DNA from: a virus
IMG/VR virus record: IMGVR_UViG_3300025669_000219
Coordinates: 1-21,528 of that record
Length of the DNA stretch: 21,528 bases
Direction: 5' to 3' (one strand)
In this document: one piece after another, positions 5,012-18,107 of the stretch
Position numbering within the stretch: position 1 is the first letter of the stretch
Layout of the letters: each line of letters begins with the position of its first letter
Translations under genes and position numbers: made by a program
The notes under the pieces: model-generated
What the model saw: only the letters and a program-made list of their open reading frames with translations
Told to the model about the DNA's origin: nothing
Databases searched by the model: none

Positions 5012-5599
5012 ATGCCTTCAACAGCCGTAACCAAACCAAAAATCGAACGCCTAAAGAAAAAAGACGACATGCCGCCAGACGCCATCGCACACCTGATGAA
5101 CATGGACGAGACGAAGAAGTATTTTTACGGGCCGAAAAAGGATAAGGCGGCACGTGAACAGCAGTTACGGCTGATGGCGCTGATGTGTACGATTGATCCG
5201 CCGGTGAAGGTGGCGGAGAAGTTTGGGGTCGGCCATGAGATTGTGAGGCGTGCGTGGCGGAAGTATCGGGGCGAGTTGCAGGATGCTACGATCACGCGGA
5301 ACAAGATTGTGGCAGGGCTGGCCGAACGTCGAGCGATTCAGGCGTTGCAAAGCCTGGACGTGACGAAGATAGCGGACGACAAGAAGGCTCGTACCGTGAA
5401 GGACTTGATGGATTCGTCATCGCTGGCGAATGAGAACGTGAAACCGGCTGATGAAAAGAAGGATGAATCCACGATGGAGTTGATATTCAGAATCAAGAAG
5501 CGCGGCTCAACACCCCTTCCAAAGCCCTCCGAATCCGAAGATGATGTGGTGGATGGCGAGTTTGAGGAAACTAAGCAGATACCGAAGGAGACGCCATGA
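5012..5599 (+). CDS. Probable terminase small subunit
   Basis: A 195-residue basic protein placed directly before the large terminase, the usual position for the small, DNA-recognising subunit. Residues about 63-85 (PPVKVAEKFGVGHEIVRRAWRKY) read as a helix-turn-helix. Basic N- and acidic C-terminal tails (ending with many Glu/Asp) flank it, and the C-terminal part may contact the large subunit. I start at ATG 5012 because AAGGAG lies 5 bases upstream; the in-frame TTG at 4994 has no binding site. It ends in an ATGA overlap with the next gene. Role from position and fold; no strong signature motif. Confidence 0.65.
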   Translation: MPSTAVTKPKIERLKKKDDMPPDAIAHLMNMDETKKYFYGPKKDKAAREQQLRLMALMCTIDPPVKVAEKFGVGHEIVRRAWRKYRGELQDATITRNKIVAGLAERRAIQALQSLDVTKIADDKKARTVKDLMDSSSLANENVKPADEKKDESTMELIFRIKKRGSTPLPKPSESEDDVVDGEFEETKQIPKETP

Positions 5600-5829
5600 A
5601 TATATTGTTTATGTCAAAAAAGAAACTGACAGAGTTAATTGAGGCTGTAGCGTTTAAGTTTTGGTATGAGCATATAATTAAGAGGGTTAATCATTTGGAA
5701 TCTTGCCAAAAAGATAATGAAAATAATTTTGGAGACACGGTGAATACTATCAACTACCTCAAAAGCGAGGAGTTTATTGGAGAGCTTGTTTCTCGTATTA
5801 ATAAACTTCAGTTAAAGGGAAAGCGATGA
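5596..5829 (+). CDS. Hypothetical 77-aa AT-rich protein between the terminase genes
   Basis: Unrecognised. It overlaps the previous stop and the next start by ATGA on both sides, with GAAGGAG before its ATG, so it is certainly in the translated operon. The product is highly helical and charged (MSKKKLTELIEAVAFKFWYE..., later EEFIGELVSRINKLQLKGKR) and could form a small coiled coil. Base composition is clearly more AT-rich than both neighbours, with codons such as aaa, ttt and att favoured. That suggests late acquisition. Its fixed location between the two terminase subunits hints at a packaging accessory role, but nothing in the sequence proves it. Confidence 0.75.
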   Translation: MNILFMSKKKLTELIEAVAFKFWYEHIIKRVNHLESCQKDNENNFGDTVNTINYLKSEEFIGELVSRINKLQLKGKR

Positions 5830-7553
5830 CCGACGAAGGCCAAGAAAAAGTATATGAATTATGGTTAGGAAATGATAAAATTTCTTACCCATACTCCGTC
5901 ATCAAATCCGACAAACAGCTTGAGCGCGACTTGAAGGATTTGGAGCGGCGTAAGGCTGAGTGCGAGATACAGTTCTTTGCTCCGCATGGGGCATCGCGGA
6001 TGGGGTACGATTGCGGGTTCCAGTTAGTGTCAATGGCAGACTGGATGAATGATCGCGAGCATACGATAGCCATTAACTGCGCCCCAAACCAAGTTGGAAA
6101 AACCTGCCATGCTGTGGTGAAGAAGTCGCTAAAGATTATTCCGTGCGATCCTAATTGGCAGATATTCAAGAACGGGATCAACTATAATGATTGGCAGGGG
6201 AAGAAGACGTTGGTGGTGCTCGGTTACGACAAGGGCCAGTTGCGCGACGTGCTCTGGCCTGAACTTCAAAAATGGATTCCTGCGGCAGAGCTTGGTGAGT
6301 TTCGTCCAACATCGCTCGGTGGCACACGCGAACCGTCTTGGGAGCGTAACGCACGGGTTAATTTGAGGTGTGGTAGCAGGATTATTTTTCTAACGTATGA
6401 CCAGAAGGCGAGTGTGTGTGCGGGCGTTAAGTGCGAAGAAGTGTTGCCGGACGAGCAGATGCCACTATCGTTTTTTAACGAACTGGATCAGCGTGGCCGC
6501 ACCCGTGGTGGTATCTGGTGGGACTTCCCGTTCACGCCTCACAAAGTCGAAGGCCGCGTGGATACCGGTATGACTTCATGGCTGTATGATTTATGGACAG
6601 GCCACAATACTCGCGGGCATAATATTTTGCGAACACGCATATCAGTTGACGACGTACCTGACCACATCTATTCAAAGCGAGAGAAGCGCAAGGCTTATGT
6701 TCAGTGGGTGGAATCGCCGGAGAAGACTGGTGACAGGGAAGCAATCCGCGAGGGCAAGGCGCGATACTACGGACTATTCCAAAGCGTTTCTGGTCTTTTC
6801 TACCCTGAGATTAACCCTGACGTTCACTACATCGATTGGACATGGGATGACATCAAGGGCAAGGGCTGGACATGTTATCGGAGCATGGACTACGGGTATA
6901 ACAACCCTACGGCCTGCGGCATGTGGGCGGTGAATCCGAGTGGCGACTTGTTCATGTTCGATGAGTATTACAAGACTGGGTTGGACGCCATTCAACACGC
7001 TCCGGCGATTGTTGAGTATTGCGGGAACGAGCGGCGGCTGGTAAAGAAGATGCACGACAAGAATACTGGTGTGCATTATGATGTGTACGAAGAAGTGGAG
7101 ATACGGCAGAAGTATGTGCGGACGTGGCTCGACTGGCACTCGTTTCAAACGGCTGGCGGGGTCGGGCGTCCGGTGAGTTTTTTCTTCCAGATTGGCGGGC
7201 TGAATGTGTGCGAAAGCTCCAAGCTGGGGCAGGAGGCGAGGGCGCAGAACTTACGTGCCTTACTTAAGATCGACCCGCAACGCAAGCACATGGTTACTGG
7301 CAAGATGGGTGCGCCACGCATGTATATCTCGCGTAAATGTGCCAAGATGATTTGGGAGTTTGAGCGGTGTGTCACCGATACGCGAGCGTTTGGCAATGAG
7401 AGCAAGAACGCCAAGGAAACTAAACGCAATAAAGACGACCATCTTATAGATTCGACCGAGTACCTTGCTTGCGAGGTGCCGAGGTATTTGGGCGATTACG
7501 CAAAGAGGAAACCGAACGAGATGCAGAATATAAGCAGGCACGGGGGGTACTGA
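5826..7553 (+). CDS. terL: Terminase large subunit (ATPase-nuclease)
   Basis: The 575-residue packaging motor that pumps DNA into the procapsid and cuts the concatemer. The ATPase domain carries a Walker A CAPNQVGKT (residues 85-93) and a Walker B-like LPDEQ (207-211) with the catalytic Glu at 210. The nuclease domain begins around 340: RSMDYGY (352-358) supplies the first acidic residue, FDEYY (378-382) and WLDWHSF (434-440) further acidic residues, and RNKDDHLIDSTEYLA (534-548) the last. Length is normal for the family. It follows the small gene with ATGA overlap. Motif assignments are by eye but consistent with a TerL fold. Confidence 0.9.
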   Translation: MTDEGQEKVYELWLGNDKISYPYSVIKSDKQLERDLKDLERRKAECEIQFFAPHGASRMGYDCGFQLVSMADWMNDREHTIAINCAPNQVGKTCHAVVKKSLKIIPCDPNWQIFKNGINYNDWQGKKTLVVLGYDKGQLRDVLWPELQKWIPAAELGEFRPTSLGGTREPSWERNARVNLRCGSRIIFLTYDQKASVCAGVKCEEVLPDEQMPLSFFNELDQRGRTRGGIWWDFPFTPHKVEGRVDTGMTSWLYDLWTGHNTRGHNILRTRISVDDVPDHIYSKREKRKAYVQWVESPEKTGDREAIREGKARYYGLFQSVSGLFYPEINPDVHYIDWTWDDIKGKGWTCYRSMDYGYNNPTACGMWAVNPSGDLFMFDEYYKTGLDAIQHAPAIVEYCGNERRLVKKMHDKNTGVHYDVYEEVEIRQKYVRTWLDWHSFQTAGGVGRPVSFFFQIGGLNVCESSKLGQEARAQNLRALLKIDPQRKHMVTGKMGAPRMYISRKCAKMIWEFERCVTDTRAFGNESKNAKETKRNKDDHLIDSTEYLACEVPRYLGDYAKRKPNEMQNISRHGGY

Positions 7554-7554
7554 C

Positions 7555-8007
7555 ATGAAAAAAAACAGTAGCATTGCGAAGTTAAAGATGAGCGATATTT
7601 TATGCGGCGAGTATGAAAAACCAAAAAGATTTTCTGATAAATTCTTGGACGAATACAGCTCCAAGGAAGACTGCGTGCTTGGTATTGTATATACCAGAAA
7701 ACTTATAGAATATTACAATGGGTCTAATCCAGTTACATATATTGTGGGTGATTCTTCAGACGCTCCTACCGAAGAAAGATATTTTAAAATATATATTGAG
7801 GGCGATAGTGTGAGAGAGGCTGAAGGTGTTTTGTTATGTCTTTTACAGGAATACAGGAAAAGGTCAATCAAAAATGGTAAAAAGTTTTTGTATTGGAGAA
7901 TGCGGCCTTGTTTGAGTAGCATTGAAGATGGCAAGTGGCTGGGAAGGGCGAGATTATTGTATAGCAAAAAAGATGCGCGTGTAACCATTAGACAAAGGGG
8001 TGTTTAA
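7555..8007 (+). CDS. Hypothetical 150-aa AT-rich protein
   Basis: Unrecognised. It begins one base after the terminase stop, with a G-rich run about 6-12 bases upstream. The protein (MKKNSSIAKLKMSDILCGEY...) is alpha/beta in character. Likely strands are at 'DCVLGIVYTRKLIEYY' and 'VTYIVGDSS...RYFKIYIEGD', and there is a basic tail (RARLLYSKKDARVTIRQRGV). It has no clear motif. Composition is AT-rich compared with the terminase gene before it and the co-chaperonin gene after it, which suggests acquisition by a different route. It lies in the late operon. Confidence 0.75.
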   Translation: MKKNSSIAKLKMSDILCGEYEKPKRFSDKFLDEYSSKEDCVLGIVYTRKLIEYYNGSNPVTYIVGDSSDAPTEERYFKIYIEGDSVREAEGVLLCLLQEYRKRSIKNGKKFLYWRMRPCLSSIEDGKWLGRARLLYSKKDARVTIRQRGV

Positions 8008-8008
8008 C

Positions 8009-8251
8009 ATGAATCCAAAAACAACCGAAAACGATCTGCGCGAGGTGGGGCTGGTAATTGACGAGCCAGGGTTTAAGATTATTGAGAACATGATATACGA
8101 GCACCTGAAAGGGTTGAACGATTTAAGTCGGCTCAAGGGTAACCCCTTTGACGATGGTGCGTGTAAGGGCGAAGTGGAAGGGCTAAAGTATGTTACGTGT
8201 ATGTTCGAGTATCTACGGAAGACGCTCAAAAACAAAAAGGGGGATGAATGA
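8009..8251 (+). CDS. Hypothetical 80-aa protein
   Basis: Unrecognised. I start at ATG 8009, one base after the preceding stop, with AAGGGG about 8 bases upstream; the in-frame GTG at 8000 lies inside the preceding gene and is less likely. The product (MNPKTTENDLREVGLVIDEP...) is helix-rich and includes a C-terminal basic helix (KYVTCMFEYLRKTLKNKK). Small helical proteins in this position, before the head genes, are common in phages and lack a known function. It ends with an ATGA overlap with the co-chaperonin gene, so the two are translationally coupled. Confidence 0.72.
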   Translation: MNPKTTENDLREVGLVIDEPGFKIIENMIYEHLKGLNDLSRLKGNPFDDGACKGEVEGLKYVTCMFEYLRKTLKNKKGDE

Positions 8252-8799
8252 GTAATATTGATGGAACCAACTTCAAACCACTCCGCGCTCTTATTCTTGT
8301 CCGGCGCGACGATCCCGAATCCGAGGACGGTGGCATTATCATACCTGATAGCGTGCAGACGTATGGGTGGCGAGCGACGGTGATACGGTCAGGGCCGAAG
8401 GCGAGCGACTACAAAGAGGGTGACGTTATCTTATTCCAGAAGGAATTTACGGTGTTGCCGTTCAAAGACCGGACACTGGCGTTGACCGAGGCCGAACATG
8501 TGCTGGCTAAATTAAAGGCTATCGGCAAAGTGGAGTGTATTATCCCGCAGAACAAGTTTGTTTTGGTTGACCCATATCCAATGCCAATCAAGGTTGACGG
8601 ACTGTTCTTGGCTGACAAGTCCAAAGCCCCGCCGAAAACAGGATGTGTCAAGATGGTTGGGCCTGACTGCCGCGAAGTCAAGATCGGCATGGATGTATGG
8701 GTTGAAGGCAACGTGGGCGTCAACTGCGTGGAAGATGGCGAGGGCTACAAACTGATTGACGAGTCGAATATACTGGCAATGCGAATTGGCGAGGAATAA
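8248..8799 (+). CDS. Tandem (double) GroES-like co-chaperonin
   Basis: A 183-residue protein made of two Cpn10 folds. The first (about 8-91) reads PLRALILVRRDDPESEDGGI then IIPDSVQ, with a GGIII mobile-loop motif (residues 28-32), then a GDVILFQKEF strand and a C-terminal 'LTEAEHVLAKL'. The second (about 97-181) begins PQNKFVLVDPYPMPIKVDGL, with LFL (119-121) where GroES has its hydrophobic tripeptide, and ends 'YKLIDESNILAMRI'. Both copies show the GroES order: beta strand, mobile loop, GP turn, valve-like strand. It would cap GroEL to fold phage proteins, as T4 gp31 does. Its position among the head genes points to the capsid protein as client. The tandem form resembles plant Cpn20. Confidence is high for the fold, lower for the client. 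Confidence 0.8.
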   Translation: MSNIDGTNFKPLRALILVRRDDPESEDGGIIIPDSVQTYGWRATVIRSGPKASDYKEGDVILFQKEFTVLPFKDRTLALTEAEHVLAKLKAIGKVECIIPQNKFVLVDPYPMPIKVDGLFLADKSKAPPKTGCVKMVGPDCREVKIGMDVWVEGNVGVNCVEDGEGYKLIDESNILAMRIGEE

Positions 8800-8800
8800 C

Positions 8801-9088
8801 ATGAAACCAATTGAATCATATCCTGACAAGAGGCGTTGCGAGATGTGTGGGGCATTGCGGGTGGACGACGACGCTGATTCCGGCATAGAACATGAAGCGT
8901 CGGAGGTTGTCAGACGATTAGCGTTTGTTGCTGACAAATCTCCGTCGCTGGCTATTTTGATGATACATTATATTGCCGGACAGACCGAGCGGGATATTGC
9001 CGCGAGTTTGGGCATTACTCATCAAGCCGTTCACCGGAAGATAGCCAATGCCAAAAAAGCTATGTTGCCAATTAAAAAGCTGAAATAA
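8801..9088 (+). CDS. Sigma-region-4-like HTH regulator
   Basis: A 95-residue protein starting at ATG 8801, one base after the co-chaperonin stop, with GAGGAA upstream. An in-frame ATG at 8756 lies inside the previous gene and is rejected. Residues 13-16 are CEMC, a lone CxxC that may bind metal. Residues about 50-83 (LAILMIHYIAGQTERDIAAS and LGITHQAVHRKI) match the helix-turn-helix of sigma-70 region 4 / RNA polymerase sigma-like proteins. It could be a late-gene activator or an anti-sigma-type adaptor. A partial sigma factor lacking region 2 is the alternative. It is the last gene before a structured gap, and so well placed to regulate what follows. Confidence 0.6.
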   Translation: MKPIESYPDKRRCEMCGALRVDDDADSGIEHEASEVVRRLAFVADKSPSLAILMIHYIAGQTERDIAASLGITHQAVHRKIANAKKAMLPIKKLK

Positions 9089-9169: not shown

Positions 9170-9227
9170 AGCCACGACGGTTTGTCAAAACTTTTAGGGC
9201 ATCCCCTCTCTAATTTATGGGGTGGAT

Positions 9228-11432
9228 ATGCCAGATTTGAACGTGACAGACCAGTTCCAAGCTCCCCCGCTCGCTAATCAGGCTGATGAACCCACCGATA
9301 GCTTCTTTGAGGTCGATACACCTGCACTTGACGAAGGCGTTAATTTGATGGATATGTTCCCGAATTACGCCGAGAAGGACGATATTGTTGAGAAGACGAA
9401 GATACGGCTCAAACGCATATTCTCAAACCTGCGTGACCGCTCCGACTTGGAAGACATCTGGGAAAAGAACGACAAGATGTTCCGGTGCAAGCCGGATGAC
9501 AGTTTAGACTCCAAGCACAGGGCGAACGAGGCTACTGGCGTATTCCACATATCAGTCAATCAGTTGCAGTCAATGGCGTTTAAGACGTTCACGGATAACC
9601 CAGAAAACTATACCTATGGGTTTCGTGGGGCTGTTGATGATGACGTGACGAACACCATCCGAGCCAAGAACGCCGAGATAATGACGCTATTATTTCGCAA
9701 GGCGCAGTCCAACAACGACTTCAAGCTGAACCTTAAACGCGCTCTGCATGACTGCTATAAGAATGGAACGTGCTTTGTCGGTGTGCCGTGGGAAAAGAAG
9801 ATCACGGACTTAGTGTATCGTGACAAGGCTTCTGGTGATAGGAAGACCAAGGAGTTTGTAAAGAACTACCTTCCGGGCTTCCAGTTCATTCCGATTGATA
9901 AGCTGTGGCTGGACGAGAATATTGCTGACATGGAAGACCAGCCGGGGGTATTCATTGATAGTCCGATTACTTGGAGCATGTTGCTCAAGGACAGCAAGAA
10001 CAAGAAGATAGCCATATTCAAACCTGACGGGCAGGAGAGTCTGCGGAATAAGTTTGCCGGATATATTGAACACACTTCTTCTTCAGAGTTTAGCACTCCC
10101 AAGAGTGACCGCATGGATAACGCTGGCAGGCCGATACAGGACAGGACGAGCGAGCGTTACCAGCATTGGTATGTTTGGATTGATTTGCCGATAGACAAGG
10201 ACAAAAACAAATGGGACGAGGATGGTCAGGATGTTAAGTGCAGGGTTAGGATCATTGGTAGTCCAGAAAGTTGCGAGGTAGTTGAGATCCGTGAGAACGT
10301 GTTTCCAGGAGGCATCCCCATCCTCGTTGCCCATCAGACAGAAGATGACGTTGGAATGTATCACATCAGTCTGGGCGAAAAGACTGAAACGTATTACGAC
10401 CAGATTTGCACGTCGGTAAATCAGCTTATTGATAACCGCTCCAAGAACTTGCGGCGTCCGATAGTGGCGGATTTATTGCGCGTGGATATGGATAATTATG
10501 ACTTCGGCCATTCAAACGTAATCCCGTGTAATGGCGATGTGCGGTCTGCCTTTGCGGAAATGCAGATCATTGATATGACAAATACAATCATGGCCTCTAT
10601 CCAGTATTTTGAGCAGAAGATACGCGAGATAATGAACACGACTGACGCCGTTATGGGCGTGGCTATGGGCGGCCGAACAAGCGCGAGCGAGTTTATGAGC
10701 GCCAAGGCTTCGGCTACAACGCCTATTTACAGTGATATGGCGAGCATCGAGGACATGCTGATTGGCGAATATATGCGCCGGTTTGCTCAGTACATTCACA
10801 CGTTTATGACGCTCGAAGATATTGTGGCTCAGGTGGGGGTTGTTGGTTCTGAGTTTCAGTTTGACCTTGTGGATATTTATTCCGTGGAGTTGCGTGGTGT
10901 GAGCGAGGCGATGGACAAGGCCACCAAGATTCAGAACCTTCTGCAGCTCTTAGGCTTTACTCAGGATGCTGGAGCGCGGGCGAAGATTAAACTGCGGTTG
11001 GTGGAGGCAATGGGCATCGAAAATCCGGCAGAGGTTGTCACGGTTCCGGCTAAGGATCAGGCGACGAAAGCGGCCCTGTGGGAAAACAATGAGATAATGA
11101 CATTCAGCAAGTGGGATGAGCCGGAGATGGGCGAGATGCACGATGTTCATATTGCTATTCACTCGCAGCGCTTGTGGCAGGGTCAACGCGAAGACCCGCC
11201 GAACAAAAGCATTCCGTTAATGGCCCAACATATTTCTAAACATCAACAGATGCAAAAGATGGAACAGGCTCAGGCAGGAGCATCATCTGGTTCAATCCCG
11301 TCAAACGGGCAGACGGCGAATCAGGGGGACTCTCTGCCTGGGCTTGAATCTGGCGCACAAATTTCAGGAGATTTAGGAAACATGCAGGCCGGTTCGCCCG
11401 TATCGGTAATGGCTGATTCGGAGCAGTTATAA
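9228..11432 (+). CDS. Portal protein (head-tail connector)
   Basis: Predicted portal of 734 residues, forming the dodecameric vertex through which DNA enters and leaves. Evidence is position after the terminase genes, ahead of a scaffold-like gene and the major capsid gene, and typical length. Sequence features fit the family: an N-terminal helix bundle (KIRLKRIFSNLRDRSDLEDI, about residues 56-75), a central region with IPIDKLWLDEN, and a long helix-rich C-terminal half (STEM-like YFEQKIREIMNTTDAVMG, RRFAQYIHTFMTL). It ends in a Gln/Ala/Gly-rich tail. I start at ATG 9228, not GTG 9222, because GGGGTGG lies just before the ATG. No single diagnostic motif exists, so family choice rests on context and overall character. 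Confidence 0.8.
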   Translation: MPDLNVTDQFQAPPLANQADEPTDSFFEVDTPALDEGVNLMDMFPNYAEKDDIVEKTKIRLKRIFSNLRDRSDLEDIWEKNDKMFRCKPDDSLDSKHRANEATGVFHISVNQLQSMAFKTFTDNPENYTYGFRGAVDDDVTNTIRAKNAEIMTLLFRKAQSNNDFKLNLKRALHDCYKNGTCFVGVPWEKKITDLVYRDKASGDRKTKEFVKNYLPGFQFIPIDKLWLDENIADMEDQPGVFIDSPITWSMLLKDSKNKKIAIFKPDGQESLRNKFAGYIEHTSSSEFSTPKSDRMDNAGRPIQDRTSERYQHWYVWIDLPIDKDKNKWDEDGQDVKCRVRIIGSPESCEVVEIRENVFPGGIPILVAHQTEDDVGMYHISLGEKTETYYDQICTSVNQLIDNRSKNLRRPIVADLLRVDMDNYDFGHSNVIPCNGDVRSAFAEMQIIDMTNTIMASIQYFEQKIREIMNTTDAVMGVAMGGRTSASEFMSAKASATTPIYSDMASIEDMLIGEYMRRFAQYIHTFMTLEDIVAQVGVVGSEFQFDLVDIYSVELRGVSEAMDKATKIQNLLQLLGFTQDAGARAKIKLRLVEAMGIENPAEVVTVPAKDQATKAALWENNEIMTFSKWDEPEMGEMHDVHIAIHSQRLWQGQREDPPNKSIPLMAQHISKHQQMQKMEQAQAGASSGSIPSNGQTANQGDSLPGLESGAQISGDLGNMQAGSPVSVMADSEQL

Positions 11433-12058
11433 TGATTGAGGAGTTTCGTAAGTGTGCTCGTTGCGGAGAAAAGATAGGGCATAGATCAAAAAAATATTGT
11501 TCTATCCGATGTGCTCGTGAAGCACGGAAAGATAATTCAAGAGTTGTGCGTGTTTGCTCTTATTGCAAAAAAGAATTTGAACGGAGATATAGTGAAACAA
11601 GATATCAGAAACATGATTTTTGCTCTAAAAAATGTATGGGGTTATTTTTGAGATTACAACCTACGCCTAAATCTGAAAAAGGGATTGACAAAATAGTTTG
11701 GAGAAGTCATCGGACTGGTTATTTTATTGGGACGGTTGATGGAGCAGTAGTTCGTAGGTCGCGTTATACCGTAGAAAAGTCATTAGGAAGAAAACTTCTT
11801 CCAGAAGAAAGCATACATCATAAAAATGGCATAAGAAACGATGACTGTATAGAAAATCTTGAATTATGGAGTTGCACGCATCCTTACGGACAAAGAGTGA
11901 GCGATAAAATAGTTTGGGCAATAGATTATTTGAAAAAATATAATTATAAAATTACACCGCCATATAATGATTTGGAGATTTGCAAGGTGGTAGCACCAGT
12001 AGAAGAAACTGCCGTTAGCCCCACGGCTCAACCTGAGGCTTCGCCCGAAGCACTCTAA
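11432..12058 (+). CDS. HNH homing endonuclease with two N-terminal zinc fingers
   Basis: A free-standing endonuclease of 208 residues. Two Cys4 sites are at C8-C11-C23-C27 and C42-C45-C64-C68. A nuclease core follows: IHHKNGIRNDDCIENLEL (residues 128-145) contains the HH pair, the catalytic-loop Asn and the ENL ending typical of HNH. Its DNA is markedly AT-rich until about codon 185, after which the last 23 residues (VVAPVEETAVSPTAQPEASP...) become GC-rich and Pro/Glu/Ala-rich. ATG overlaps the portal stop by one base. Like phage HNH genes elsewhere, it probably spreads by cutting alleles that lack it. The tail may be leftover from the gene it landed in. Confidence 0.8.
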   Translation: MIEEFRKCARCGEKIGHRSKKYCSIRCAREARKDNSRVVRVCSYCKKEFERRYSETRYQKHDFCSKKCMGLFLRLQPTPKSEKGIDKIVWRSHRTGYFIGTVDGAVVRRSRYTVEKSLGRKLLPEESIHHKNGIRNDDCIENLELWSCTHPYGQRVSDKIVWAIDYLKKYNYKITPPYNDLEICKVVAPVEETAVSPTAQPEASPEAL

Positions 12059-13405: not shown

Positions 13406-13900
13406 ATGGCTACGACACGTGTCATGAAAACTATGGCGATTTATCGCCAAGAGGGAAAAGATGGCATAACTATTGAGGATGCTGTCGGTGAAGATGTTGG
13501 TGAAACATGGAAAATGGGTGCGCCCCTTTCCCGTGAAACAGGATCAACGGGGTCTATTGTAGAATGGCCCGGAGGTGCGGATGCCACACTTCCGATAGGG
13601 ATTGCGGCAAAAGATGCGACAGGAGTTACTGGTGCCGCCATTCCGTATTATGAAGCCAATGATTACACTCTGTTTGAAGCCTCTTTGATTAACAACACTA
13701 CTGCCCATGTACTTGCGGTAGGTAATTTGGGTGTAGCATATTCACTGATCAAATCAGGAACTAATTGGTATGTTGATATTGCCGATGCAGTCACAAAACT
13801 CGTCGAAGTTGTTGGGTTTATTGATCCCGTTGGTGACACAAATCCCAGAGTCATTGTGCGATTCATTGGGGATCATCAGGCGAATGTATTGCAGGCGTAA
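13406..13900 (+). CDS. Capsid accessory (decoration-like) protein, copy 1
   Basis: A 164-residue beta-rich protein that is clearly a paralogue of the next gene (14012-14506). Shared blocks include MATTRV, AIYRQEGKDG, GAPL, PYYEANDY, HVLAV, WYVD, and the ending DTNxRVIxRFxGxxQAxVLQ. About half of the positions look identical. Location just before the major capsid gene fits a cement or decoration protein, often present in many copies. AAAGGAG precedes the ATG. Duplication is seen; the decoration role is inferred from position. A minor head or plug protein is the alternative. Confidence 0.7.
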   Translation: MATTRVMKTMAIYRQEGKDGITIEDAVGEDVGETWKMGAPLSRETGSTGSIVEWPGGADATLPIGIAAKDATGVTGAAIPYYEANDYTLFEASLINNTTAHVLAVGNLGVAYSLIKSGTNWYVDIADAVTKLVEVVGFIDPVGDTNPRVIVRFIGDHQANVLQA

Positions 13901-14011: not shown

Positions 14012-14506
14012 ATGGCGACAACTCGTGTAAAACGAACATTCGCTATTTACCGCCAGGAGGGTAAAGACGGCGCAATAGTTGATAAGACTGGTGCCGTTGG
14101 CGAAGCGGCGAGCCAAGACTATAAGCTTGGTGCTCCGTTGAAATATACTGCTGGCACTATCGAAGCTCTTGCAACCGGCGGTGCTGACACCGGACAGGTT
14201 ATTGGTATTGCTCTTAAGGATGCTACTGAAACCACGGGAGCTGCTGTTCCGTACTATGAGGCTAATGATTATAACCTGTTCGCAGGAACATTGGTTGCAA
14301 CCGCGAGCGATCATGTATTGGCAGTAGCTAACCTTGGTGCAGTGTATGGGATACTTGATTCCGGCGATGACTGGTATGTTGACGTTGACAATACAAGCCA
14401 GAAGAAAGTGGTGATTGTTGGTTGCATTGATCCCATCGGCGATACCAATGCCCGCGTGATATTCCGCTTCTTGGGCGGTATGCAGGCCAGGGTGCTCCAG
14501 TCCTAA
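14012..14506 (+). CDS. Capsid accessory (decoration-like) protein, copy 2
   Basis: The second copy of the duplicated pair, 164 residues, homologous along its entire length to 13406-13900. The conserved core is KDATxTTGAAxPYYEANDYx and DPIGDTNARVIFRFLGG. The middle section differs most (residues about 20-60), as expected where the two would contact different partners. AAGGAG precedes the ATG at about 7 bases. It lies 37 bases before the major capsid start. A head decoration, vertex or plug function is inferred. Either the pair gives two copy-number-regulated proteins, or one copy has moved to a new role. Confidence 0.7.
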   Translation: MATTRVKRTFAIYRQEGKDGAIVDKTGAVGEAASQDYKLGAPLKYTAGTIEALATGGADTGQVIGIALKDATETTGAAVPYYEANDYNLFAGTLVATASDHVLAVANLGAVYGILDSGDDWYVDVDNTSQKKVVIVGCIDPIGDTNARVIFRFLGGMQARVLQS

Positions 14507-14543: not shown

Positions 14544-15458
14544 ATGGCTATTATATCTCCAAGTATGGCGAACCTTTATGATGCTCGCATCAATAAGGCG
14601 TTCTATCAGTATCTCGGCCTGTATGCCGAGGAATACAGCAAGTGGTGCGAAACGATGGGATCGACGAAGCAGTATGAGAAGGTTTCGCTGTATGGCGAAC
14701 TTCCTATGCCTGCTCTGTTGGGTGAGTATGAGAACGCGGCTGAGACCAGCTTCAAACCTGGCCCGGTTCGTACTTGGACTCACGTCAAGTATGGCTACAC
14801 GCTGATTGCTTCCGAGGAATCTATCGAAGACGAATTGTTCCCCGTGATCGAAGCTACGGCTGGCAGCATGGGAATGGCGATGAAGCATCGTATCGAAACG
14901 CAGGGTGCTTATGACCTGAATGGTGCGTTTACAGTGCTTACGGTTGGTGCGGCTGATACGGCAGACGAGTATCTGATTCAGCGCAGTCACGCGACTTTCA
15001 CGGGCGCGGGTGGTGCGGCGCAGCACAATGCTCCGTCCACTGACGTAACGCTTGGGCCTGACTCTCTGTGGGCGGGTGTGGATAACTTCAGCGGTCTTAA
15101 CGACCATGAAGGCAATCCGGTGATGGCTATTCCGCAGACACTTATCGTCAATGCGGCGAACGAACGCACGGCTACCGAGATTCTTGAATCGGTAGACATT
15201 CCGTACAAGACCACGAACGAGACCAATGCTATCCGCAAACGGAAACTCAGCTACACTATCGGTCATTACCTTACCAGCTCAACGGCGTGGTTCTTGGTGA
15301 CTGACAAAAAGCCGATTCGGTTCTATATGCGGCGTAGCCCTTCCGTGAAACCTGATAAGACCATTCGCAATGACTCGCGTAGCTGGACGATTACCTGTCG
15401 TCTGAGCCATGCGCCGTATGACTGGTATCAGATTTACGGCACAGATGGTGCGGCCTAA
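14544..15458 (+). CDS. Major capsid protein (HK97-like)
   Basis: Predicted shell subunit of 304 residues. The position after scaffold and decoration genes, the length, and features of the HK97 fold support this: an N-terminal arm (MAIISPSMANLYDARINKAF), a spine-helix zone with IASEESIEDELFPVIEATAG (residues about 89-108), the pattern GSMGMAMKHRIETQGAYDL, and a beta-rich C-terminal half with RFYMRRSPSVKPDK and RSWTITCRLSHAPYDWYQIY. The 'YGYTLIASEE' block is typical of several Mu-like and podovirus coat proteins. AAAAGGAAATAAGTT precedes the ATG. Family call is by eye. A folded sequence lies right after the stop (15481-15528). Confidence 0.8.
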   Translation: MAIISPSMANLYDARINKAFYQYLGLYAEEYSKWCETMGSTKQYEKVSLYGELPMPALLGEYENAAETSFKPGPVRTWTHVKYGYTLIASEESIEDELFPVIEATAGSMGMAMKHRIETQGAYDLNGAFTVLTVGAADTADEYLIQRSHATFTGAGGAAQHNAPSTDVTLGPDSLWAGVDNFSGLNDHEGNPVMAIPQTLIVNAANERTATEILESVDIPYKTTNETNAIRKRKLSYTIGHYLTSSTAWFLVTDKKPIRFYMRRSPSVKPDKTIRNDSRSWTITCRLSHAPYDWYQIYGTDGAA

Positions 15459-15538: not shown

Positions 15539-16237
15539 ATGATGGGTAATGAAGTAAAAGAAAAAGAAAAAGTTAAAAAGGATGTAACACCTGATCTTAC
15601 CAAACAGTTGGCGAGTGTTGCATTTATGGTTCGCAAGATTAAGAACTGGATGGAGGAAAAAATGGGTGCTGACCTCGATGGCGATGGCCGTGTTGGTAGC
15701 GGCCCGTATAACAAGGTTAAGAAACTCGGTGTCCTTCTGGCGATTGCTGGATTGGCGACGGTTTGTTCGGCGGCTCCGTATAATACGAATAACACGGTGT
15801 TTGTTGGCCCCATAAGTGCGCCTGTATCCTACGTTGATGAAAGCGGCAATCTTGTTGTTCCAAACATAACTGTTGGAGCCATCACTGCTTCTGGACTAAT
15901 CAACGGTGTTACCATTAACACAACGATGATAACCAACGTGATTACGGCTGGGCAGGTATTGCCTGCAGTCGACGGTTCGGCTATCACCAACATGTCGGCG
16001 GCACAATTGGCAGCGGCCACGGTGTTACTGGCGGTTGATGGGTCGGCTGTTACTAACATTGGCGCGGCTAATATAGCTGCGGCTGGCGTATTGAGTGCTG
16101 TTGATGGTAGTGCAGTAACGAATATGGCTCCGGCGACTGCATTCCCTGATTATGGTGTTGTTGTTGTGACAAATCTCGATATTGATGGTACGACAAACAT
16201 CATTACGTATATCGGAACTGTATCTCGTAATCAGTAA
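15539..16237 (+). CDS. Exported-like repeat protein with EF-hand-like motif and membrane segment
   Basis: A 232-residue protein, unusual for a virion operon. Residues 45-54 are DLDGDGRVGS, a Ca-binding-type loop (the usual final Glu is absent). Residues 60-79 (VKKLGVLLAIAGLATVCSAA) are a basic-hydrophobic segment like a signal peptide or membrane anchor. A low-complexity beta-prone region follows, with three 22-residue-period units around VLPAVDGSAITNMSAA, VLLAVDGSAVTNIGAA and VLSAVDGSAVTNMAPA (residues 140-199). ATG 15539 or 15542 has AAAAGG upstream. The internal ATG 15662 (residue 42) has a far better site, GGAGG five bases upstream, so a shorter product starting just before the Ca loop is likely. 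Similar repeats occur in tail-fibre proteins; the actual role is unknown. Confidence 0.7.
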   Translation: MMGNEVKEKEKVKKDVTPDLTKQLASVAFMVRKIKNWMEEKMGADLDGDGRVGSGPYNKVKKLGVLLAIAGLATVCSAAPYNTNNTVFVGPISAPVSYVDESGNLVVPNITVGAITASGLINGVTINTTMITNVITAGQVLPAVDGSAITNMSAAQLAAATVLLAVDGSAVTNIGAANIAAAGVLSAVDGSAVTNMAPATAFPDYGVVVVTNLDIDGTTNIITYIGTVSRNQ

Positions 16238-17387: not shown

Positions 17388-18107
17388 ATGATTACTAAGA
17401 TATATGTTTTATGTGAACCCAATGGCGGTGAAATAAGATATATCGGGAAAACCGGTCAATCTCTTTCCAGAAGATTTGGTGTTCATTTAACGGATGCACG
17501 GCGTCTAAATCTAACGTCCCATCTTGCTAATTGGTTGCGATCTATATTATCAACCGGACATCTTCCTGCCATATTGCTTATTGGCGAAATAGAAGGAGAT
17601 GGTTGTAAAGAGGAAATTGCCTGGATTGCTTATGGCCGGTCAGAAGGATGGCGTTTGGTTAATGGAACAGATGGCGGGGAGGGAGCGTTAGGGCATAAAG
17701 TTTCAAAGGAGGCACGCGAAAAAATAAGCAAGGCGCTTAAAGGGCGTTGTATTTCTGAGGAACGGAAAATTAAAATAGGTAATTTCCATAGAGGTAGACA
17801 TATGTCTGTTGAATCTCGTCGCAAATTAAGTGAATCTCGCAAGGGAATATTGCCTTGGACTACAGGAAAGCATCTTTCGCCGGAAACAAGATTTAAAATA
17901 AGTGAATCAAACAAGGGCAACATTCCTCAAATGAAGGGAAAACATTTTTCTGCGGAAATATGCAAAAAAATGAGTAATGGAATAAAAATGGCATGGAAAA
18001 AACGGCAAGAACTTGGGTCAAATAAAGCATCTTTTGAAACTCGCAAAAAGATGAGTGAGACACACAAAGATATTTGGGCTAAACGCAAGCAACTAAAGGT
18101 AGCATAA
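17388..18107 (+). CDS. GIY-YIG homing endonuclease with NUMOD3 repeats
   Basis: A 239-residue free-standing endonuclease. The GIY-YIG domain covers about residues 3-100: IYVL (5-8), RYIGKT (17-22), the Arg at 28-29, a Glu at 75-76, and the terminal NGTDGGEG (92-99). Six NUMOD3-type DNA-binding units then follow at about 105-119, 122-136, 139-153, 163-177, 187-200 and 215-228, each with the pattern [S]xExRxKxSxxxKG. The gene is AT-rich compared with both flanking genes and has no clear ribosome binding site, so translation may be coupled to the preceding gene (3 bases apart). Cleavage target unknown, most likely the adaptor or tail genes of related phages. Confidence 0.9.
   Translation: MITKIYVLCEPNGGEIRYIGKTGQSLSRRFGVHLTDARRLNLTSHLANWLRSILSTGHLPAILLIGEIEGDGCKEEIAWIAYGRSEGWRLVNGTDGGEGALGHKVSKEAREKISKALKGRCISEERKIKIGNFHRGRHMSVESRRKLSESRKGILPWTTGKHLSPETRFKISESNKGNIPQMKGKHFSAEICKKMSNGIKMAWKKRQELGSNKASFETRKKMSETHKDIWAKRKQLKVA

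Follow-up and report, generated by a model that had tools for sequence, protein, structure and literature searches.

A tandem Cpn10 (double GroES-fold) gene in the packaging and head gene block of an uncultured phage and its relatives

The window analysed here is a 21,528-base stretch of uncultured phage DNA (positions 1 to 21,528 of the IMG/VR record IMGVR_UViG_3300025669_000219). Between a terminase gene and a portal candidate it carries an open reading frame which runs from ATG to TAA without interruption and encodes two Cpn10 domains in a single chain (Table 1). A purine-rich, Shine-Dalgarno-like stretch lies immediately 5' of its start, and AGGAGG-like sites are found in relatives. GroES, the protein after which this fold is named here, is the lid of the bacterial protein-folding barrel GroEL, which is seven-fold.

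Table 1. Coordinates of the features discussed, with the evidence for each.
Feature	Position	Strand	Evidence
Terminase large subunit	5826..7553	+	PHROG 10250 E 4e-7; PHROG 5653 E 1.5e-6
Small ORF directly 5' of the tandem gene	8000..8251	+	homologue in G001, L047, L049, L070, L072/L076
Tandem Cpn10 (double GroES-fold) gene, 183 aa	8248..8799	+	PF00166 52 bits in two stretches; AF2 model; CPN20 fold match
First Cpn10 domain (residues 8-88)	8269..8511	+	PF00166 29.9 bits alone; genome search match at 8269-8511
Domain 1 mobile loop (residues 21-33), GGIII-P	8308..8346	+	family alignment; pLDDT <50 at residues 25-33
Domain 1 invariant motif T-x-L-P-F-x-x-R (residues 68-75)	8449..8472	+	family alignment
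Second Cpn10 domain (residues 98-178)	8539..8781	+	PF00166 26.4 bits alone; genome search match at 8539-8781
Domain 2 mobile-loop region (residues 109-122), DGLFL	8572..8613	+	family alignment; hydrophobic-x-Leu in 8/9 phages, degenerate in L070
Cys141, invariant, at GroES roof-loop position	8668..8670	+	family alignment
Portal candidate	9222..11432	+	position; PHROG 332/1216 matches in relatives only
Major capsid protein candidate, 304 aa (~33 kDa)	14544..15458	+	PF10124 22.9 bits (cut-off 20.1); PHROG 371 E 4e-8

The terminase, the portal candidate, the capsid candidate and an SU10-type adaptor (PF24175, E 3e-22) together confirm a packaging and head block, so that the tandem gene does lie among head genes, ahead of the portal candidate and the capsid candidate, as a preliminary description of this DNA had proposed. 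The adaptor suggests that the phage is podovirus-like. In the family of the portal candidate, three of seven members match PHROG 332 'head-tail adaptor' (best 3.8e-10) and one matches PHROG 1216 'portal protein' (0.0024); the AF2 model of the candidate (pLDDT 33) gave no structural support, the portal matches in a PDB profile search were insignificant, and the GenBank phage collection held no similar protein, so that no taxonomic placement follows from it. The small ORF directly 5' of the tandem gene, to which an ORF of similar size corresponds in L053-L055, has no match in Pfam or in PHROGs. Neither an Rfam match nor a tRNA was found in the window.

Several other genes of the window were compared with G001, the single group (three contigs of one phage) returned by a first search for relatives. 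Directly 3' of the tandem gene lies a small helix-turn-helix or sigma-70 region 4-like gene (8801-9088) with no G001 match, and L047 has a helix-turn-helix-like ORF at the equivalent place (5256-5600). An HNH endonuclease-like gene (11432-12058), with the portal candidate on one side and the next conserved gene on the other, likewise has no G001 protein match. Two paralogous small proteins encoded 5' of the capsid gene (13406-13900 and 14012-14506), which may be decoration proteins, share 93% and 96% identity with their equivalents in G001, well above the values for the capsid (81%) and the terminase (62%). The product of 15539-16237 has three VLPAVDGSAITNM-type repeats after a hydrophobic segment and may be a fibre-like or surface protein. 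A NUMOD3 homing endonuclease-like gene (17388-18107) has its G001 homologue at another site (G001 26129-26653), and has thus moved. Finally, positions 1-2700 hold few convincing ORFs, are strongly AT-skewed (-0.32 in 1-1500) and resemble G001 DNA around 13.2 kb in short stretches; this region is possibly non-coding or regulatory.

Pfam, profile and fold comparisons agree on the two Cpn10 domains, which the preliminary description had read from the letters. The whole protein matches the Pfam Cpn10 family (PF00166) in two stretches (E 7e-14) and PHROG 3188 'co-chaperonin GroES' (E 4e-17); when the halves were scored separately, each exceeded the curated PF00166 cut-off of 21.1 bits on its own (Table 1). 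BLASTP of the first half of the window protein against the second returned no significant alignment; a profile built from nine first halves, compared with one built from nine second halves, aligned over 81 columns (E 5.8e-10, probability 96.6%). Chance is excluded as the source of the double match. The AF2 model (from a 16-row alignment; mean pLDDT 81.9, pTM 0.76) has two Cpn10 barrels, and its best PDB fold matches are GroES/Cpn10 proteins. Foremost among solved structures is Chlamydomonas CPN20 (7ekq_R; 182 columns, E 2e-8, TM 0.67/0.64), the only solved Cpn10 protein to cover the model at full length; this chain is labelled 'CrClpP-S2c' in the fold search and 'Cpn20 co-chaperonin subunit' in the sequence search. 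In a sequence search of the PDB the same protein again comes first, aligning co-linearly from residue 10 to residue 178 (E 5.5e-7) and outranking every single-domain GroES; this bears out the resemblance to Cpn20 suggested earlier.

Both domains have a mobile loop with a hydrophobic tripeptide: III within the GGIII of residues 28-32, and LFL at residues 119-121, each as previously described. The difference between the two loops is consistent across the nine phages in which we found the gene. In domain 1 the tripeptide is I-x-[IVL] followed by Pro in all nine (III, III, III, IAI, IFL, III, IVV, IVI, IVV), and the loop is disordered in the AF2 model. In domain 2 eight phages have LFL, IEL, VVL, VYL, IIL, IEL, IAL and IEL, with Glu at the middle position in three of them, and the ninth (L070) is degenerate. 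Judging from its loop, domain 1 probably does most of the docking. Halves with different loops might, as the preliminary description proposed, bind different GroEL subunits or different chaperonins. The roof β-hairpin, a typical though not obligatory Cpn10 feature that is missing in T4 gp31 and many phage members, is absent from both domains, the GP-to-GD linker being 11 residues long vs 20 in the roofed homologue L015; many single-domain phage Cpn10s are roofless too, so rooflessness is not special to the tandem protein. Within the motif of domain 1, T68, L70, P71, F72 and R75 are invariant in the nine phages. Besides Cys141, present in every one, Cys160 is kept in all phages except L072/L076.

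The same tandem gene, which the preliminary description had proposed to look for in related phages, is a constant of this group. Using the terminase as bait, we recovered 12 related contigs from eight further phages (G001 included), which makes nine distinct phages with the window, and in all 12 the tandem gene sits between the terminase and the portal candidate; the tandem protein as bait returned nine of the same 12 contigs and none that was new. Identity to the window protein ranges from 59% (G001) down to 24-29%. In the nine phages, which come from several assemblies, the gene is one uninterrupted frame coding for about 175-183 aa, and this refutes an origin by the joining of two adjacent GroES genes through an assembly or frame error, to which we give practically no credence. 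Several of the relatives come from metagenomes (3300025642, 3300025586 and 3300035698) of Antarctic lake origin (PMC8542988).

In a tree of the separate domains, the nine first domains form one group (98/97) and the nine second domains another (99/95), which places the fusion before the split of these phages. Codon comparison of four pairs of sequences gave dN/dS of roughly 0.05-0.18 for the first domain and 0.12-0.25 for the second, values that are approximate since dS often exceeds 1, several pairs being close to saturation at synonymous sites; by this measure purifying selection acts on both halves. Of 45 pairs, 39 show greater similarity in the first domain than in the second (mean identity 44% vs 35%). 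Between the window and G001 the figures are 78% for domain 1 and 44% for domain 2, and in the three most distant phages the similarity to the window is about equal for the two domains.

Beyond this group, peptide patterns drawn from the tandem protein led to no viral contigs other than those of the G001 group, and in genome contigs to unrelated bacterial single GroES (L015, L016); when five tandem proteins were compared by tblastn with 50,697 phage records, no tandem match appeared, and the other viral Cpn10 loci that were sampled are all single-domain. No further Cpn10 was found in the window or on the related contigs, nor any GroEL gene on the latter, all of which are partial. Since the related contigs bring no chaperonin of their own, host GroEL is the likely partner.

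A search of a viral structure library with the AF2 model returned four proteins which match almost all of it (TM-score 0.56-0.70, normalised by query length; 16-21% identity): gp096 of Cellulophaga phage phi18:3 and the BFVD entries A0A516LTQ1, A0A516LJK4 and A0A516L046. Going by the predicted folds, these are probably double Cpn10 proteins as well; tblastn with the tandem family of the window did not recover any of the four. The gp096 protein of this cultured phage (KC821620.1, L081 2959-3561; 200 aa) is annotated 'chaperonin cpn10'. Pfam Cpn10 recognises its C-terminal half only, the N-terminal half being Cpn10 by fold and a GLEL loop only, and its profile link to the window family is weak. 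The same phage encodes a single Cpn10, gp080 (KC821620.1, L062 6001-6255), so that a single and a tandem-like protein are paired as chloroplast Cpn10 and Cpn20 are. The adjoining gp081 was considered as a split second domain and rejected, its sequence not being Cpn10-like and a Pfam search of the genome being silent there.

The statement in the preliminary description that known phage co-chaperonins are single-domain thus stands for the described ones and is weakened by deposited proteins, gp096 among them, that match nearly the whole tandem length. To our knowledge, the tandem GroES design has been described so far mainly from plant and malaria-parasite plastids, and a literature search, with subscription journals mostly outside its reach, brought up no account of a phage tandem Cpn10. 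Because tandem-like phage proteins are already deposited, the window protein does not define a new kind of system; it represents a new family, which is well supported, of a tandem pattern previously unrecognised in phages.

Chloroplast and apicoplast Cpn20 (Chlamydomonas CPN20 in 7ekq, Arabidopsis, Plasmodium) also has two head-to-tail Cpn10 domains per chain, and identity to CPN20 is 27%. The differences are several: both halves of apicomplexan Cpn20 have roofs (PMC3542282), whereas neither half of the phage protein does; the invariant TxLPFxxR and Cys141 set the phage family apart; and Cpn20 is a plastid protein with an N-terminal transit peptide, for which the viral protein, whose first barrel starts at residue 8, has no room. 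The domain tree did not recover a clade with the CPN20 halves, and topology tests (AU p 0.11-0.37) reject neither a single duplication nor a common CPN20 origin. At most, the phage tandem works like Cpn20, and we do not class it as a member of the plastid family. T4 gp31 is, like the tandem protein, a phage Cpn10-fold protein without roof loops, which gives it a wider opening (PMC6318259); it differs in being a single-domain protein that forms a heptamer with a 22-residue loop, and is 14% identical in the fold alignment. The single-domain phage GroES proteins (PHROG 3188; Bacteroides phages SJC03/DAC, Cellulophaga gp080, IMG/VR loci) belong to the same family with one domain only; most have a GIIIP loop, and many are roofless, as the tandem is.

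Our preferred reading, which we regard as probable, is that the fused pair of roofless Cpn10 domains serves as a co-chaperonin lid on host GroEL, which it would redirect to phage structural proteins. The lid on the host GroEL ring would be made of three or four chains, hence six or eight domains, or, alternatively, of three chains and one host GroES-type subunit, giving seven domains. Contact with GroEL would run mainly through the canonical first-domain loops, assisted by the weaker and more variable loops of the second domains, and the host chaperonin would thereby be turned to the phage structural proteins encoded in the same gene block. That lids with an even number of domains can work is indicated by precedents: Cpn20 is mostly tetrameric, Plasmodium Cpn20 substitutes for GroES in E. 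coli, and GroES concatamers of six and eight domains function with GroEL (PMC5780408, PMC3542282). GroEL binding and the oligomeric form are, for the phage protein, what we infer from this evidence, and the substrate is suggested by the position of the gene in the packaging and head block. Against the lid reading stand the degenerate domain 2 loop of L070 and the central Glu that three phages have in the domain 2 tripeptide, and also the fragmentary contigs, since a phage GroEL or a single Cpn10 may lie elsewhere in these genomes. T4 gp31 is needed for the folding of T4 gp23, an argument from cage size. The earlier proposal that the tandem helps to fold the major capsid protein keeps the support of gene position and loses that parallel, because the capsid candidate, at only ~33 kDa, is far under the size that makes gp31 necessary and has no obvious need of an enlarged cage.

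The tandem may instead act only as part of a seven-domain ring that it shares with host GroES (three tandem chains and one single), hijacking the host lid and not replacing it, which is a serious but less likely possibility. Seven-domain hetero-rings of chloroplast Cpn10 and Cpn20 are described in PMC3542282 (citing Tsai 2012) and PMC5780408; no single Cpn10 was found on the related contigs, and phi18:3 has the single gp080 beside the tandem-like gp096. PfCpn20, on the other hand, works alone, and the related contigs are incomplete. We think it rather unlikely that the lid is asymmetric, with domain 1 docking and domain 2, its loop weakened and Cys141 standing at the missing roof, forming a rim that is open and may respond to redox state or metals, an even homo-oligomer or a 3+1 ring altering what GroEL accepts, and an origin separate from plastid Cpn20. 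Recruitment of the fold to a role in the virion or in assembly, such as at the portal vertex, with loss of GroEL binding, would accord with the fixed position beside the portal candidate and with the invariant TxLPFxxR motif and Cys141; the clear PF00166 scores and a first mobile loop that is canonical in 9/9 phages, and predicted disordered as expected of a free docking loop, make it improbable. Slightly less credible still, in our judgement, is an inhibitor or decoy which binds GroEL via domain 1 and acts mainly by stopping host protein folding or a host process that depends on GroEL, with the lid blunted by domain 2: the relaxed domain 2 loop and the faster divergence of this domain in the close relatives of the window (see the G001 comparison) would fit, whereas the location in the packaging and head block and the purifying selection on both domains would not.

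Co-chaperonin lids of the Cpn20 type raise the question of how a barrel of seven-fold symmetry can be closed by a lid made of an even number of domains, and the phage tandem, which we favor as such a lid, is a viral case of it. Being small, shared by a whole group of phages and presumed to work on bacterial GroEL, this homologue offers a simple bacterial test system, and the cultured Cellulophaga phages with single and tandem-like Cpn10 genes would allow the hetero-ring idea to be examined during infection. If the asymmetric arrangement were true, the tandem lid would have arisen separately from plastid Cpn20. More generally, our results suggest that tandem Cpn10 proteins may sit unrecognised in phage databases.
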